Assembly (NCBI GenBank): GCA_937136395.1
Contig: CAKZOI010000022.1
Span: 248,001-312,000, forward strand
Direction of reading: 5' to 3'
Origin: an uncultured Opitutia bacterium
Lineage (GTDB): Bacteria; Verrucomicrobiota; Verrucomicrobiia; Opitutales; Coraliomargaritaceae
DNA length: 64,000 nt
Both the position numbers and the translations under genes were made by a program. The stretch's first letter is position 1, and each line of letters opens with the position of its first letter. Below the pieces are notes generated by a model, which was not told the origin of the DNA, did not search any database, and was given only the letters and a program-made list of their open reading frames with translations. This document shows positions 19,358 through 28,131 of this stretch, one piece after another.

Positions 19358-20275
19358 TTACGCGTTCGCCATTTGCTCTTTTGCAGCTGCTTGCTCTGCA
19401 AGCATTGCGCGGCGGCGTGCACGCACGTCGAACATATCTGATTGCTCATCGGCATGGTAGGATGAGCGAATCATTGGCCCAGACTCACAGGCACCAAAGC
19501 CTATTTCGAGTGCATATTCTTTCCAGCGTTTGAATTCATCTGGAGTGACCCAGCGGTCAATATTCGCGTGTTGCTTGGATGGTTGTAAGTATTGTCCGAT
19601 AGTCAGGATGTCGACGCCGACTTTTTGCATGTCTTGGAGGACTTCCTTGATTTCGTCTTCTTTTTCACCGATGCCTAGCATGATGCCAGATTTGGTAATG
19701 AAGCCACGTGATTTTGCATGTTCAAGCACCCAAAGCGAGCGATCATAGCGAGCGGTCTTGCGGATCGGACGCTGTAGACGCTTCACCGTCTCCATATTGT
19801 GGTTGAAAATGTCGGGGCATGCATCGAGCACAACATCAAGATATTCCTGCTGGCCGCGGAAGTCGGCGGTGAGGACTTCGACGGCGCATTCTGGCTGGCG
19901 ATTGTGGACGGCGCGAATCGTAGCGGCCCATACGGAGGCCCCGCCGTCCTTTAAGTCATCACGTGCGACAGAGGTGATCACGGCATGACGAAGGTTCATC
20001 TTCGCAATGGATTCGGCGACGCGTGCGGGCTCACCGAGGTCGAGTTCGGTCGGTCTGCCAGTCTGAATGGCACAAAAACGACAGGAGCGTGTGCAGATGT
20101 TACCGAGAATCATCACCGTTGCGGTGCCTCTGGACCAACATTCACCCATATTCGGGCATTGGGCACTTTTGCATACCGTGTGTAATCCGTTTGTGTCGAC
20201 GATTTCACGGACCTCTTTGTATTCTTTACTCGTCGGGAGTTTTGCCCGGAGCCAGTCTGGTTTGCGATTATCCAT
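19358..20275 (-). CDS. lipA: Lipoyl synthase
   Basis: A radical SAM enzyme that inserts two sulfurs into protein-bound octanoyl groups. Both iron-sulfur cluster motifs are visible: the auxiliary cluster CKSAQCPNMGEC near residue 36, and the SAM cluster CTRSCRFCAI near residue 61. The C-terminal region includes GPMIRSSYHA, with the conserved RSSYHA. ATG 20275 gives 305 aa; it overlaps the end of lipB by 8 bp, so translation is probably coupled. Substrate proteins are E2 subunits and GcvH. Confidence 0.95.
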   Translation of the reverse strand: MDNRKPDWLRAKLPTSKEYKEVREIVDTNGLHTVCKSAQCPNMGECWSRGTATVMILGNICTRSCRFCAIQTGRPTELDLGEPARVAESIAKMNLRHAVITSVARDDLKDGGASVWAATIRAVHNRQPECAVEVLTADFRGQQEYLDVVLDACPDIFNHNMETVKRLQRPIRKTARYDRSLWVLEHAKSRGFITKSGIMLGIGEKEDEIKEVLQDMQKVGVDILTIGQYLQPSKQHANIDRWVTPDEFKRWKEYALEIGFGACESGPMIRSSYHADEQSDMFDVRARRRAMLAEQAAAKEQMANA

Positions 20276-20942
20276 TTTGAGCGGCAGTGTTTTGAAAAAC
20301 CTTTTGAAATTCAACTGCTAAAGCAGTCTTAACTTCGGCGAAGTCAACTTTTCGATCTAATTCGAGCTCCATTGAGGTGACGGTGCCGTCGGTAATGCCG
20401 CAGGGGACAATGCCCGTGAAGTGGCGCATGTCGGGGCTGACATTGAGCGCAAACCCGTGGTAGGTCACCCAAGAGCGGACTGCGACGCCAATTGCGCAAA
20501 TCTTGCGTTGGCCTAGCCAGATGCCTGTTTTTCCTTCCCGGCGATCACTTTCCAAGCCGAAATGCGTGAGTGTATTTATAACGACAGCTTCTAGATCTCT
20601 TAAGTATGCATGTAGATCGCGACGTTTCTGTAGCGAGATGATTGGATAGCCGACTATTTGCCCAGGACCATGGTAGGTGATATCGCCCCCACGATTACTG
20701 CGATAGATGGTAATGCCTTGTTGGGCGCAGGTCGATTTGTCCCAAATCAGGTGCTGATCAGCGCCTTTGCGTAGACCTAGAGTGTAGACGGGGTCGTGTT
20801 CAGTAAATACGAGGGTATCGTTCGTGGCTTGGTTACGACGTTTATTGACAAGCTCTTTTTGACGCTCAAAAGCATCTGCATACGCAGTGCGGCCCCAATC
20901 AACTAAAGAGAGCGGGGATGAAGTGTGTTGCTGTGTGTCCAC
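20268..20942 (-). CDS. lipB: Octanoyltransferase
   Basis: Transfers octanoate from octanoyl-ACP to apo-lipoyl domains, supplying LipA. At 224 aa the length is normal. It has RGGDITYHGPGQIVGYPI, the LipB signature, then GKTGIWLGQRKICAIGVAVR, with the conserved Lys, and TYHGFALNV. The start is GTG at 20942. Only 23 bp would separate this start from the glmS-end duplicate at 20966, so lipB-lipA probably once followed glmS directly; the element at 20966-22439 now lies between. Confidence 0.94.
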   Translation of the reverse strand: MDTQQHTSSPLSLVDWGRTAYADAFERQKELVNKRRNQATNDTLVFTEHDPVYTLGLRKGADQHLIWDKSTCAQQGITIYRSNRGGDITYHGPGQIVGYPIISLQKRRDLHAYLRDLEAVVINTLTHFGLESDRREGKTGIWLGQRKICAIGVAVRSWVTYHGFALNVSPDMRHFTGIVPCGITDGTVTSMELELDRKVDFAEVKTALAVEFQKVFQNTAAQNG

Positions 20943-20965: not shown

Positions 20966-21003
20966 TTACTCCACCGTAACGGTTTGTTTCTCGTGTAATA
21001 CTT
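20966..21003. other. Element boundary (att site) on the lipB side
   Basis: Contains the 12-bp core TTACTCCACCGT at 20966-20977, a 10-bp spacer and the inverted arm TTCTCGTGTAATACTT at 20988-21003. The core duplicates the glmS end. A crossover at the GT at 20976-20977 would account for both junctions. Confidence 0.7.
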
Positions 21004-21008
21004 CCATC

Positions 21009-21593
21009 TTAAACCGTTGGTAATATTAGGGTTTGTGTCCGTTTTCCGACCGTTATTCGGTTTTTTTTTGTCGAACCGTATTTGTCACCCACAATGGGTA
21101 ATTTATAATGGATATCCAATTGGTGTTCTTTCTTATTAATTATCGTAATCATTATCCTATCAATCACTCCCATAAGGAATTCTCTTTGTTCCTTTTTATC
21201 CTTCTCACCTTCCTTTGATAATCGTTTTTGATACTTTGATATCCAATCAATCCATTCACCTTGTTTGTTAAAATTGTCTATTTCTAGTTTCAATAAATCC
21301 TTCTCTTTATTCAACTTTAATATCTCTTGTTCCGAATTCTTTAGGATATCCTTTTTAACTCCTTTATCCAAAATCATTTTTGGTAATTCGACTAAGGTAT
21401 TTTCTATATCCTGAATCTCTAACTCTATACTTCTAATTTTCCGTCTATTAGAAGTCTTTTGTTTTATACGAAGTTTTTTATCTCCAAGGATTCCATCCTT
21501 TTCTATTTCTTTCCAATGGTGTGATGCAGTTAAAGTTTCACAAAACCCTACGGAACATAAACAGAGTAGGAGTAGAGAAAAACTAAACCTCAT
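21009..21593 (-). CDS. Serine-recombinase C-terminus-like coiled-coil protein with secretion-signal-like start
   Basis: 194 aa, AT-rich coding. Residues about 40-190 resemble the coiled-coil C-terminal region of large serine recombinases: long Lys/Glu/Ile-rich helices, then REFLMGVIDRIMITIINKK and HQLDIHYKLPIVGDKYG, a pattern common at the end of these enzymes. The catalytic resolvase domain is absent. The first 19 residues (MRFSFSLLLLCLCSVGFCE) look like a secretion signal and are nearly the same in DNA as the start of the upstream gene, suggesting a fusion by recombination. It overlaps that gene by 11 bp. The recombinase origin is a judgement from motif memory; an unrelated secreted coiled-coil protein is the alternative. 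Confidence 0.5.
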   Translation of the reverse strand: MRFSFSLLLLCLCSVGFCETLTASHHWKEIEKDGILGDKKLRIKQKTSNRRKIRSIELEIQDIENTLVELPKMILDKGVKKDILKNSEQEILKLNKEKDLLKLEIDNFNKQGEWIDWISKYQKRLSKEGEKDKKEQREFLMGVIDRIMITIINKKEHQLDIHYKLPIVGDKYGSTKKNRITVGKRTQTLILPTV

Positions 21594-21978
21594 CGTTATT
21601 AGACTCTTTGATTACAGTAAAGGTTCCATGACTCTTGAAGTCTAAATCCTTTAATTCTTCTTTCAGTTCAACGTGAGGACTTATTGAATTACTTACCCAA
21701 ATTTTGTCTTGTTTATCTAGTACAGTAACCCTGTATGAACTCCTCCATGCAGGTGTTAAAAGTAATAAAGTATCTTCATCATCTATGAGGACAAAACATG
21801 GAGTATTGTTAGAATCTTCAGGGTCATATTCATCTTTGAGTTTATCTGTGTTGATATATAACCCCTCGTGTTTTACTAAGTAGAAATTTTCTTCGTTTTC
21901 ACTTTTACAGAAATAACTCTCAGAAAAAACCGAAGAACAGAAACAGAGTAGGAGTAGGGTGAGTTTAATTTTAATCAT
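21583..21978 (-). CDS. Small secreted hypothetical protein
   Basis: 131 aa, beginning with a clear secretion signal (MIKIKLTLLLLCFCSSVFSES, cleavage near residue 19). The mature part is acidic with two Cys (YFCKSENEENF and NNTPCFVLIDDED). No family is recognised. The stop overlaps the start of the next gene, so the two are translationally linked. It lies inside the glmS-associated element and shares its low GC. Confidence 0.55.
   Translation of the reverse strand: MIKIKLTLLLLCFCSSVFSESYFCKSENEENFYLVKHEGLYINTDKLKDEYDPEDSNNTPCFVLIDDEDTLLLLTPAWRSSYRVTVLDKQDKIWVSNSISPHVELKEELKDLDFKSHGTFTVIKESNNDEV
21946..21961 (-). repeat. Signal-peptide-coding repeat, copy 1 (copy 2 at about 21560-21575)
   Basis: AACAGAGTAGGAGTAG (plus strand) is found in the signal-peptide region of both small genes of the element, showing that the two N-termini share an origin. 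Confidence 0.6.
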
Positions 21979-22090
21979 ACATTTCTATAATCCTTAGGTA
22001 TATCACTTACAAGAAATTACTCATAATGAACTTCTCAGGAAGGGTAGTCTTCTTTCCTCATAATTAGGTTTCTAGGAGCCTCATTCATTT

Positions 22091-22427
22091 CTATGAGTTT
22101 TCTATCCTCAGGAATTCTACTTTCTCGTAAGATACCTTAATATCATTTAATCGAGATTCTCTTTTCTTCCTCTTATCAATCGTCACCCAAATCAATGATT
22201 TGTAATATGGTTTATTCGTGAAAAGGGTGGTTCCATATTTCTCATTCATCCAATCCGTTATTTCGGTGGTTGATTTCCCCTGATTATAAAGACTCCAAAT
22301 GTCCTCTAATCTTTCTATCCTTTCCTCTCTGTAAATTGAGGGTAGGGATAAGAATCCTGTCCTGATTCTTTTGTGTATATGTAAAATGTAAGGATTCGAA
22401 ATATCCTTTAAAAGTATTACACGAGAA
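22091..22427 (-). pseudogene. Gene fragment, possible recombinase helix-turn-helix region
   Basis: A reading frame within the element with no internal start before a Met halfway along; it remains open into the glmS end only as a shadow of that gene. The translated part has EERIERLEDIWSLYNQGKS followed by TTEITDWMNEKYGTTLF, which resembles the DNA-binding segment between the catalytic and C-terminal regions of serine recombinases. It stops at 22091. It is more likely a truncated remnant than a functional gene; the assignment is tentative. Confidence 0.4.
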
Positions 22428-22439
22428 TTACTCCACCGT
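22412..22439. other. Element boundary (att site) on the glmS side
   Basis: Inverted arm AAGTATTACACGAGAA (22412-22427) directly abuts the 12-bp core TTACTCCACCGT (22428-22439), which on the minus strand encodes the last codons and the TAA stop of glmS. glmS is therefore left intact by the integration. Confidence 0.72.
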
Positions 22440-24278
22440 GACTGACTTTGCAAGGTTGCGTGGCTTATCGACATCGCACTCGCGCTCTAAAGCGACATAG
22501 TAACTCAGCAATTGAACTGGAATACTCATGAGAATCGGTTTCACGATTTCGTGGCATTCTGGAACGAGTATAATATCGTCGACCAAGCCATCTGGGATTT
22601 CGCATTCGTCGGTCGCGATACAAATGACTTTGCCTTTGCGTGCTTTGACTTCTTGCACGTTCGCTAAACTCTTATGAAAAATCTCTCCAGATGTCGCGAG
22701 AAAGACGCTTGGGCACTCTTCGCTGATCAATGCGATCGGGCCGTGCTTCATTTCTGCTGCTGGATAGCCTTCTGCGTGGATATATGAAATCTCTTTCAGT
22801 TTCAGTGCGCCCTCCAGAGCGATGGGGAACATGAGCTGGCGTCCAAGGAAGAGACAGTCTTCGTATTTGGCGTATTTCTTGGCAATGGTTTCGATGTGGC
22901 TGGTTTGTTTCAGCACTTCGCTGACTTGTTCCGGAAGCTTCTTGAGTGCTTTGACAATATCGACACCATCACCATAGCTTAAGTCACGCAAACGGCCCAG
23001 ATAGAGTGCTAGCATGGCGCAGATCATGATTTGTGAGGTGAAAGCCTTGGTTGATGCGACACCGATTTCTGGCCCTGCGTGCTGATAAATACCGCCATCG
23101 CACTCACGAGCGATGGTAGAGCCGACACTGTTGTTGATTGATAAGGTGCGATAGCCTTTGCGCTTTGCTTCACGTAGAGCGCCTAATGTGTCAATGGTTT
23201 CACCCGATTGGCTGATTGCGATTACGAGAGTGTTTTTATCGAGAGGCGCGTTGCGGTAGCGGAACTCGGAGGCGTATTCGACTTCTACGGGAATACGAGC
23301 AAAGCGTTCGATCAAATATTCGGCAACGAGACAGGCGTGCCAAGCGGTGCCACAGGCGATGAAAAGAATGCGGTCGATCTGGCGTAATTCTTGTGGATTG
23401 AGGTTGAGACCACCAAAGACAGCGGTGCTCGCATCATCAGAGAAACGACCGCGCATTCCATTTTTTAGAGAAGTCGGCTGCTCGAAAATCTCTTTTTGCA
23501 TGAAATGGTCGTAGTCACCAAGTTCCGCCTCGCTGGTGTCCCAATCAACCTGATGGATGATGGCTTCGACGCTCTTACTGCTGACGGTTGAGATCGAGAA
23601 GTCGTCGTTTCGTAAATGCACGACCTCATTATCGTTTAGGTAAACGACGTTTTGTGTGCAATGGGTAATCGCGTTCACATCAGAGGCGAGTATGTTCTCA
23701 CCTTTACCAATACCGATGATCAGAGGAGAGCCTTTGCGTGCACCGATTAATTCGTTTGGATAATCTTCACAAATGACGGCAATACCATAGGTGCCATCAA
23801 CATGGCGCAGGCTTTTACGCACCGCTTCTAGAAAACGGTTTTTACCTGAAGCCTCGGGCTCTTTGTTGTAGTGGTAGGCAATTAAATTACACAACGCCTC
23901 TGAGTCGGTTTCAGATGAGAAACTATATCCTTTCTCGACGAGAAACGTTTTCATGGCGACGTAGTTTTCGATGACGCCATTATGAACCAAGGAGATTTTT
24001 CCGTCGCTAGATTGGTGTGGGTGCGCATTGGCCTCGGTCACATCACCGTGTGTTGCCCAGCGAGTATGGCTAATGCCTAAACTGCCTCCAAGCTGAAGTT
24101 CGTCGAGGGCGTCTTCGAGCTCTTTAACCCGGCCAGTGCGCTTGATCAGTTCAAATCCTTTATCGGTGCTGACGACCATGCCTGATGAGTCGTAGCCCCT
24201 GTATTCAAGGCGTTTGAGACCATCTAGCATAATACTACCCGCTCGTTCGCGGCCGACATATCCAACAATTCCACACAT
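22428..24278 (-). CDS. glmS: Glutamine--fructose-6-phosphate aminotransferase (isomerizing)
   Basis: Makes glucosamine-6-phosphate from fructose-6-phosphate and glutamine, the entry step to peptidoglycan and LPS amino sugars. 616 aa. The N-terminal glutaminase begins MCGIVGYVG, with Cys2 as nucleophile, and has RLEYRGYDSSGM and SHTRWATHG. Two SIS domains follow (AISQSGETIDTLGALREAKR near residue 350 and CLFLGRQLMFPIALEGALKLKE near 480). The C-terminus is the family's LAKSVTVE. The element at 20966-22439 has integrated precisely at this end without changing the protein. Divergent from glgC. Confidence 0.96.
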   Translation of the reverse strand: MCGIVGYVGRERAGSIMLDGLKRLEYRGYDSSGMVVSTDKGFELIKRTGRVKELEDALDELQLGGSLGISHTRWATHGDVTEANAHPHQSSDGKISLVHNGVIENYVAMKTFLVEKGYSFSSETDSEALCNLIAYHYNKEPEASGKNRFLEAVRKSLRHVDGTYGIAVICEDYPNELIGARKGSPLIIGIGKGENILASDVNAITHCTQNVVYLNDNEVVHLRNDDFSISTVSSKSVEAIIHQVDWDTSEAELGDYDHFMQKEIFEQPTSLKNGMRGRFSDDASTAVFGGLNLNPQELRQIDRILFIACGTAWHACLVAEYLIERFARIPVEVEYASEFRYRNAPLDKNTLVIAISQSGETIDTLGALREAKRKGYRTLSINNSVGSTIARECDGGIYQHAGPEIGVASTKAFTSQIMICAMLALYLGRLRDLSYGDGVDIVKALKKLPEQVSEVLKQTSHIETIAKKYAKYEDCLFLGRQLMFPIALEGALKLKEISYIHAEGYPAAEMKHGPIALISEECPSVFLATSGEIFHKSLANVQEVKARKGKVICIATDECEIPDGLVDDIILVPECHEIVKPILMSIPVQLLSYYVALERECDVDKPRNLAKSVTVE

Positions 24279-26642: not shown

Positions 26643-27915
26643 TTTGAGTGACTGAAAAGCCGTGGTCCATTATCTGGAACCACGGCTTGTTATCGTGTGC
26701 TGAAGGTTTGTGTGACGCGAGGTCCTCTTCAGGCAAGTCTGCATATACTTGGAAGTCTGCATAGGCTTCGTTTCCATGCTCTGAAATGTCCAAGCCTTCA
26801 AGTTCTTCCTCTTCGCTGACACGGAGTCCTACGGTCACCTTGATCAGTTTAAATAGGATATAGCATGTAGGAAACACAAAGGCGAATACGGCAAATACGC
26901 CGATGGCTTGTATCCCGAACTGTGCGGTTCCGCCATAGAATAGTCCATCCGAAGCTAAACCAGCATCGATTGCTGTGCTGCCGAAGAGTCCCACCGCTAA
27001 CGTTCCCCAGACACCACAGATTCCATGCACGCTGACTGCACCGACGGGGTCATCTACTCGAAGTTTTTGTTCGAAGAAGAGCACCGCAAAGACGGCGATG
27101 ATTCCACCAATTAGGCCAATCGCCATGGCACCCACAATCGAGACGCTGCCACAGCAAGCTGTGATGCTGACAAGGCCTGCAAGTGCACCATTTAAAGTCA
27201 TAGAGAGGTCGGGCTTACCAAACTTAGCCCATGTGGACACACTGGCCCCAATGCATCCAGTTGACGCAGCGATCAAAGTTACCATGGCAATGTATGCCAT
27301 GTCGTCAACGGCGGCCAGTGTTGATCCGGCATTGAAGCCGAACCAGCCGACAATCAAGATGAAGCAGCCGAGTGTCGCCATCGGCATATTGTGCCCAGGG
27401 ATTGGCAATGGCTTGCCTTCTTTGTCATATTTACCCTTACGAGCCCCAAGGATGATGGCTCCAGCTAAGCCTGCCCACGCACCCACTGAGTGGACGACTG
27501 TAGAGCCAGCGTAATCACGCATCCCTAGTTCTGCGAGCCAACCATCAGCCCAGATCCAGTGACCTACGATAGGATAGATCAGGCAGGTGATCGCGATCGA
27601 ATAAATGATGTATGCAATAAACTTTGTGCGCTCAGCCATAATTCCCGATGCGATCGTTGCAGCGGTAGCTGCGAATACGACCTGGAAGATCCATTCGGCG
27701 GCGACTAGATTAGTCGCTGCAAGGTCATCGCCGACCATGAGCGCATCGCCCATCATAAAGTAGCCACTGCTCCAACCAAAGATCCCGCCTATGGTATCTC
27801 CATACATTATTGAATAGCCGATGATCGCAAAGGCGATCACACCGAAACTAAAGTCGAGCATGTTCTTCATCATGATGTTACATGCGTTTTTCGCGCGCGT
27901 CAGTCCACTCTCCAC
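26374..27915 (-). CDS. amt: Ammonium transporter, main part (N-terminus frameshifted off)
   Basis: An inner-membrane ammonium channel of the Amt/MEP/Rh family. It starts at VESGLTRAKNACNIMMKNM, which is the first conserved segment after transmembrane helix 1, and carries AEWIFQVVF, STVVHSVGAWAGLAGA, and DDPVGAVSVHGICGVWG with the twin-His region. The missing signal peptide and helix 1 lie in another frame at 27932-28117. At the 3' end the frame continues past the natural C-terminal motif (HGNEAYADFQ) through the terminator hairpin and antisense to usp to 26374; the true end was probably near 26690. Two defects suggest a decayed gene, or sequence errors. Confidence 0.8.
   Translation of the reverse strand: MESGLTRAKNACNIMMKNMLDFSFGVIAFAIIGYSIMYGDTIGGIFGWSSGYFMMGDALMVGDDLAATNLVAAEWIFQVVFAATAATIASGIMAERTKFIAYIIYSIAITCLIYPIVGHWIWADGWLAELGMRDYAGSTVVHSVGAWAGLAGAIILGARKGKYDKEGKPLPIPGHNMPMATLGCFILIVGWFGFNAGSTLAAVDDMAYIAMVTLIAASTGCIGASVSTWAKFGKPDLSMTLNGALAGLVSITACCGSVSIVGAMAIGLIGGIIAVFAVLFFEQKLRVDDPVGAVSVHGICGVWGTLAVGLFGSTAIDAGLASDGLFYGGTAQFGIQAIGVFAVFAFVFPTCYILFKLIKVTVGLRVSEEEELEGLDISEHGNEAYADFQVYADLPEEDLASHKPSAHDNKPWFQIMDHGFSVTQTSESKAQAHGIDAIIQLWCYQLKDREYDYDHRRLSRVNQFSNCLHNRQSRFRLLRSALDKLQISLRFQKSPQLQQYDPQLHLRGALQPL
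26656..26688. terminator. Bidirectional terminator between usp and amt
   Basis: Arms AAGCCGTGGT and ACCACGGCTT form a perfect 10-bp stem, extended by TCCA/TGGA with one bulge, in the convergent gap. The amt reading frame passes through it without a stop, which is unexpected for an intact gene. Confidence 0.72.
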
Positions 27916-27931
27916 AAGCGCAAATCCTGCT

Positions 27932-28117
27932 TCATGAAAAATACCAATATAGCGCGATCAAATACCAGATGATGCCTCCGGTGTTCTGGCTTAGATAGCT
28001 TACGCTCTCGGCGGCTGCTTCTTGAGCGGTCGCAATATATGGTAATAGAATACCTAAATCACGCAGCAGCATGGAGAGTTGATTCTTCGTCAACTTATCT
28101 GATGTGAGTATGTGCAT
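27932..28117 (-). pseudogene. amt: N-terminal fragment of the ammonium transporter
   Basis: Encodes a secretion-signal-like stretch (MLLRDLGILLPYIATAQ) then ESVSYLSQNTGGIIWYLIA, the normal Amt N-terminus and start of helix 1. It ends at a TGA after LYWYFS. Removing one T from the TTTTT run at about 27935-27939 restores the frame into HEAGFALVESGL of the main part, so a +1 insertion splits the gene. It lies 14 bp after the Roadblock-like gene. Confidence 0.7.
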
Positions 28118-28131
28118 AAATATTCTAAGCC

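Follow-up and report, generated by a model that had tools for sequence, protein, structure and literature searches.

A probable relic of a large serine recombinase element at the end of glmS in an uncultured Opitutia bacterium, with intact relatives at the same site

The end of glmS, an essential gene, is familiar chiefly as the safe site used by Tn7. Tn7 is a transposase system that recognises the glmS 3' region and inserts downstream of the gene (PMC4046053). At another conserved housekeeping gene, SCCmec and ECC elements use large serine recombinases (LSRs) to occupy the 3' region of rlmH, are bounded by direct repeats with dyad symmetry and carry variable cargo (PMC6222049), and at this site (orfX/rlmH) both composite elements and stacked, mostly recombinase-less SCC remnants are found (PMC3637587). 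The dusA-specific integrases form a family that, in many bacteria, is bound to a single conserved gene and inserts at its 5' end (PMC4482086).

We analysed 64,000 nucleotides of DNA from an uncultured Opitutia bacterium (the window), in which glmS and lipB are separated by an island with a G+C content of 33%, compared with 49% for the window. The features of the locus are as follows.

20268..20942, minus strand: lipB, the next host gene downstream of glmS, contiguous with glmS in genomes G001 and G002.
20966..20977, minus strand: displaced glmS-end copy at the lipB-side junction (attL-like), an exact ACGGTGGAGTAA read on the minus strand.
20978..22439, no strand: integrated element of 1462 bp, if the crossover was at the GT of the shared 12-mer, as judged from copy spacing and the empty sites of G001 and G002.
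20988..21003, plus strand: lipB-side 16-bp attP arm, sequence TTCTCGTGTAATACTT.
21009..21593, minus strand: 194-aa ORF, a signal-peptide-like start joined to the C-terminal part of an LSR (about 21009-21539).
21533..21575, no strand: 43-bp imperfect direct repeat, partner at 21915-21957 (77% identity).
21583..21978, minus strand: 131-aa protein with a signal-peptide-like N terminus (cargo), with a homolog in the glmS element of G017 (L037).
22091..22426, minus strand: small HTH gene for about 106-111 aa, with an uncertain start codon, the first gene of the element after glmS; its homologs lie directly behind glmS in other elements.
22412..22427, minus strand: glmS-side 16-bp attP arm, the reverse complement of TTCTCGTGTAATACTT, directly behind the glmS stop.
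22428..22439, minus strand: element-supplied glmS end at the glmS-side junction (attR-like), codons T-V-E-stop; the glmS ORF is intact.
22428..24278, minus strand: glmS, the target gene, with attB spanning its last codons.
22438..22439, no strand: putative crossover dinucleotide GT, which reads AC on the glmS strand and has its partner at 20976-20977, placed by a symmetry centre at offset 10 and an invariant AC.

The 12-bp sequence TTACTCCACCGT had two exact copies in the window, at 20966-20977 and 22428-22439, the right-hand one being the stop and last codons of glmS, whose ORF was uninterrupted up to that stop; since the copies lie 1462 bp apart (start to start), the element length was set at 1462 bp. 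The inverted match between the arms was perfect over 16 bp, compared with a longest inverted pair of 11 (mean, 5.9) between the two 60-bp ends in 2000 first-order Markov simulations, and TTCTCGTGTAATACTT had exactly 2 exact matches in the 3.18-Mb genome. Joining the two ends gave a 54-bp site centred at GT, which has the layout of an LSR-type attP (about 50 bp, inverted arms and a central dinucleotide shared with attB). The island is an insertion, because glmS and lipB are contiguous, leaving an empty attB, in two genomes of the same genus (G001 and G002); joining the window flanks left 23 bp from the glmS stop to the lipB start, a spacing similar to that of the empty sites, which had about 18 and 35 bp (by reading). 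The initial annotation had placed the 12-bp copies, the perfect arms and the 54-bp joined site, and had stated that the attP carries the glmS ending so that the host gene stays intact; its coordinates proved exact and all of these features were reproduced. It had named two observations that would count against it: island-free relatives in which glmS and lipB are not contiguous, and arms that are a common repeat. G001 and G002 contradict the first, and the two matches in the genome contradict the second.

At the lipB-side edge, the island retains the C-terminal ~150 residues of an LSR, without the Resolvase domain and without most of the DNA-binding part. The 194-aa ORF matched residues 346-505 of the LSR of locus L054 by BLASTP (E=1e-14), and in the alignment it was LSR-like from about residue 19, with motifs shared to the end. 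Its signal-peptide-like start lies within the 43-bp repeat, the partner copy of which lies at the start of the 131-aa ORF, so that the 194-aa ORF was probably fused by a rearrangement, and the repeat is likely a scar of the event that joined the start of a secreted protein to the LSR remnant. The 131-aa secreted-type protein (21583-21978), for which a family search gave no match, is the only cargo left in the window copy. A complete LSR was not detected in the genome of the window by a PF07508 search, whose single, short match lay on a different contig, within a frame of 214 aa. We therefore filed the window copy as a relic of an LSR element and not as a working element. Elsewhere in the window, an ammonium transporter gene (27780-28120, minus strand) showed an apparent N-terminal frameshift, reading ...NTGGIIWYLIALYWYFS and a stop in one frame and FHEAGFALVESGLTRAKNA in another, which may reflect either a genuine mutation or an error of assembly.

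A search with the L054 LSR retrieved intact relatives in G055, G112 (of the order of the window), G217 and G274 and a remnant in G415. The intact LSRs, of ~545 aa, contained Resolvase, Recombinase and zinc ribbon domains, a complement found in G055, G112, G217, G274, L068 and L071 and absent from the window copy, and in these six the second glmS end followed the LSR stop at a distance of about 25 to 50 bp. The G055 element spans 7.2 kb between glmS and the second ACGGTGGAGTAA and encodes, in order, the small HTH protein, a HUH-type Rep (PF23343), an Xre-like regulator, variable cargo, a 199-aa tyrosine recombinase (PF00589) and a 544-aa LSR (PF00239, PF07508 and PF13408), the stop of which lies 25 bp before the second glmS end. 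In G436, a genome of the same genus, the gene downstream of the G055 element adjoins glmS, which gives the empty counterpart of this element too. In a scan of named genomes, LSRs of this group, with 34 to 56% identity over the best segment, lay immediately after glmS in Micavibrio (L068), in a further alphaproteobacterium (L070, with a broken LSR frame), in SAR86 (L071) and in Opitutae (L067, which is the G112 contig); they also occurred on contigs ending short of glmS in Limnohabitans (L069) and in a bin called Chthonomonas (L066, possibly misbinned). The scan, which relied on short peptide patterns, gave at least 29 loci. Several loci, that of the window among them, lie in genomes that are fragmented or were assembled from metagenomes. 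Viral contigs contained distant LSRs only, with no glmS end nearby.

In G274, an IS30-like transposase lies just behind the Rep gene of the glmS element and splits the assembly into two contigs (L055, 996-1953 after the glmS end; L064, 15096-16053). In G415 (L063, 12190-13244), a 97-aa piece from the N terminus of glmS is fused to the C-terminal half of an LSR of the glmS elements, beside trpE; the joint resembles the product of a deletion that ran through both glmS and the element, or else a misassembly. L118 (G211) has ATTTCCTATGACA after glmS, an arm resembling that of the G055 element, and the G211 genome yielded no close LSR; this is possibly another recombinase-less element. An Omnitrophota genome (L092, 10001-15951) is arranged differently, with a distant LSR (24% identity) about 4.7 kb upstream of the glmS end.

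The geometry of the arms was compared across elements by matching the sequence after the glmS stop to the reverse-complemented sequence preceding the second copy, at 41 offsets per element. The best offset was exactly 10 in all nine elements with paired arms (the window, L036, L054, L061, L062, L068, L070, L071 and G274), which are not fully independent cases because some are close relatives (G055, G274). At offset 10, the symmetry centre is flanked by the A and the C of the Thr codon (ACN in S-V-T-V-E-stop); this AC was invariant in all listed copies, and the neighbouring bases varied. The arms themselves were group specific, with TTCTCGTGTAATACTT in the window, TTTCC(C)TRTAACA in other Opitutae and others in Proteobacteria. 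A constant centre with differing arms is as expected of LSR attP sites that have a fixed crossover dinucleotide and clade-specific arms. The exceptions, all of them bounded segments from the family of the window, were L040, with its best offset at 7, and L041, L043 and L047, with no matching pair; since these four lack matching arms at offset 10, they were considered decayed or chimeric.

Set beside the described systems, the best analogue of these elements is SCC at rlmH. The glmS elements seem to work like SCC/ECC, with which they share an LSR, the 3' region of a conserved housekeeping gene as the target, end repeats with dyad symmetry, variable cargo, recombinase-less remnants and composite elements, but they are not members of that group, because the target and the recombinase group differ: the target is glmS instead of rlmH, and in place of the CcrA/CcrB pair there is a single LSR of another sequence group. 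They further differ in having a HUH Rep, a tyrosine recombinase and the small HTH behind the target gene, in their att core and in their occurrence in Verrucomicrobiota and Proteobacteria. Domain architecture and inverted att arms around a dinucleotide are shared with the large serine integrases of phages and ICEs (A118, SPbeta YokA, TP901-1 and Bxb1), and the LSR profile matched the solved A118, YokA and TP901-1 chains; target and cargo differ, however, the best phage and plasmid records covering most of the query had only about 24% identity to the LSR, and no phage structural genes were seen in the glmS elements read. The dusA-specific integrases are alike in their tie to one conserved gene and differ in target.

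Both junctions, the arms, the empty sites, the homology to LSR C termini and the intact relatives at glmS make it very probable that the island is a copy of a glmS-specific integrative element that has undergone internal deletion and is no longer autonomous, and whose ancestor moved by its own LSR. This ancestor would have circularised and integrated through its LSR. After binding both inverted attP arms and attB, at the end of glmS, the enzyme would have cut within the Thr codon of the C-terminal S-V-T-V-E-stop, at the AC/GT dinucleotide, and exchanged the halves; the element would thereby have supplied a new T-V-E-stop, and the host's own copy would have been pushed to the far side. The N terminus of the LSR would then have been lost by deletion, and the window copy could still move if a matching LSR were supplied in trans.

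In the family of the window, a further element often began after the second glmS end (L036, L040, L043, L047). The second element of L036 began with the arm of the window, followed by the same HTH reading frame until its truncation, and in L040 and L047 degenerate LSR C termini, seen by eye, preceded the glmS-end copy; a search of 44 family genomes found no other LSR C-terminal match. An integron-like cassette array, which these tandem copies raised as a candidate, is less likely: the junctions look like LSR-type hybrids, and together with the LSR C-terminal traces and the non-matching ends they favour stacked, decaying LSR elements. The family of the window thus shows stacked, mostly recombinase-less elements, like the SCC remnants. 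Such stacking, the perfect state of both att arms and the existence of an LSR-less relative with matching ends (L036) would also suit a functional minimal cassette (MITE-like or a satellite), moved in trans and kept by selection instead of being a dead relic. We consider this possible but rather doubtful, given that the genome yielded only the short PF07508 match and no complete LSR, that the 44 family genomes gave no LSR C-terminal match beyond the degenerate traces in L040 and L047, and that the L036 element starting with the same arm is truncated.

A second alternative assigns the integration to the 199-aa tyrosine recombinase of the relatives, with the 12-bp core and inverted arms as a tyrosine-type attP. 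A PF00589 recombinase adjoins the LSR in L054, L062, L064, L066 and L069 and lies near it in L061, and an identical 12-bp core with inverted arms fits a tyrosine enzyme too. However, the remnant at the lipB-side edge of the window island is that of an LSR, and no intact tyrosine integrase was found in this island or, between glmS and the second copy, in L068 (a short tail-like piece only) and L071. As L068 and L071 nevertheless have an intact LSR and correct junctions, the LSR is the common factor; moreover, junction copies match imperfectly outside AC, for example in L071 (ACAGTGGAGTAA versus ACTGTTGAATAG), which suits an LSR that needs only the dinucleotide. Integration by the tyrosine recombinase, and with it a plain tyrosine-integrase island, is accordingly improbable, and we infer that the LSR is the integrating enzyme, a role that rests on homology because the window remnant lacks the catalytic domain.

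A Tn7-like insertion, or its remnant at attTn7, would share the target gene end, but it is very improbable: insertion outside the coding sequence by a Tns transposase is contradicted by a junction within the last codons, which the element rebuilds by site-specific recombination, by the glmS-end copy shared by both ends, by the LSR nature of the remnant and by the LSRs of the relatives. Chance repeats around an ordinary AT-rich intergenic stretch, which low G+C by itself can yield, are refuted by 16-bp arms against a simulated maximum of 11, by the empty sites and by the geometry common to nine elements, and their probability is practically negligible. An LSR element relic thus bears out the initial annotation in its view of a glmS-specific system independent of Tn7, and its attP of a serine or tyrosine integrase can be narrowed in favour of the serine type by relatives with a full-length LSR in the same place and geometry. 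The full-length recombinase for which it had proposed a search was found at glmS in other genomes and not in that of the window. New relative to that annotation are the serine recombinase, the state of the island as a relic without a catalytic domain and a site common to a family of elements that includes the tandem series.

PADLOC models matched cargo of the intact elements: a PDC-S06 candidate in G055, a Druantia-type DNA methylase in G112, PD-Lambda-5 with both its parts in G274 and a type III methyltransferase in L068. The intact elements thus appear to carry phage defence. In three genomes of the family of the window, sulfatase-like genes (KKPNIVFIISDDVGFEEIGCYGV...) were seen right behind glmS or in segments bounded by glmS ends (L047, L040, L039) and are possible metabolic cargo.

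By alignment, every element whose start is intact had the small HTH gene as its first gene after glmS, and in L068 the HTH frame overlaps the glmS stop. Its product weakly resembled part of the LSR Recombinase domain (PF07508, E=0.0016, in L053; phrog_95 integrase, E=1.3e-4, in L068). The predicted structure had three confident helices at low overall confidence (pLDDT 69), and Foldseek with this model gave generic HTH matches only, none at E <= 0.001. The conserved protein may be a regulator or directionality factor. That it is a directionality factor whose expression integration itself would switch, by glmS read-through or translational coupling, which would make glmS ends a control point for defence-stacking LSR islands, is an unlikely extension of this idea.

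We found no report of an LSR element at glmS in the open-access literature; large LSR surveys elsewhere may list glmS, and the novelty of these elements is provisional. The interest of the window relic lies in the element family that it revealed. A recombination system unrelated to Tn7 appears to have converged on the same glmS codons in several phyla, with the geometry of its elements fixed to one dinucleotide of the near-invariant glmS C terminus (SVTVE). The intact LSRs are candidate serine-integrase tools for a conserved, benign site in many bacteria that would require no engineered landing pad. The glmS elements may also be a new place to seek anti-phage defence genes, and they offer a natural series from the full element to stacked remnants.
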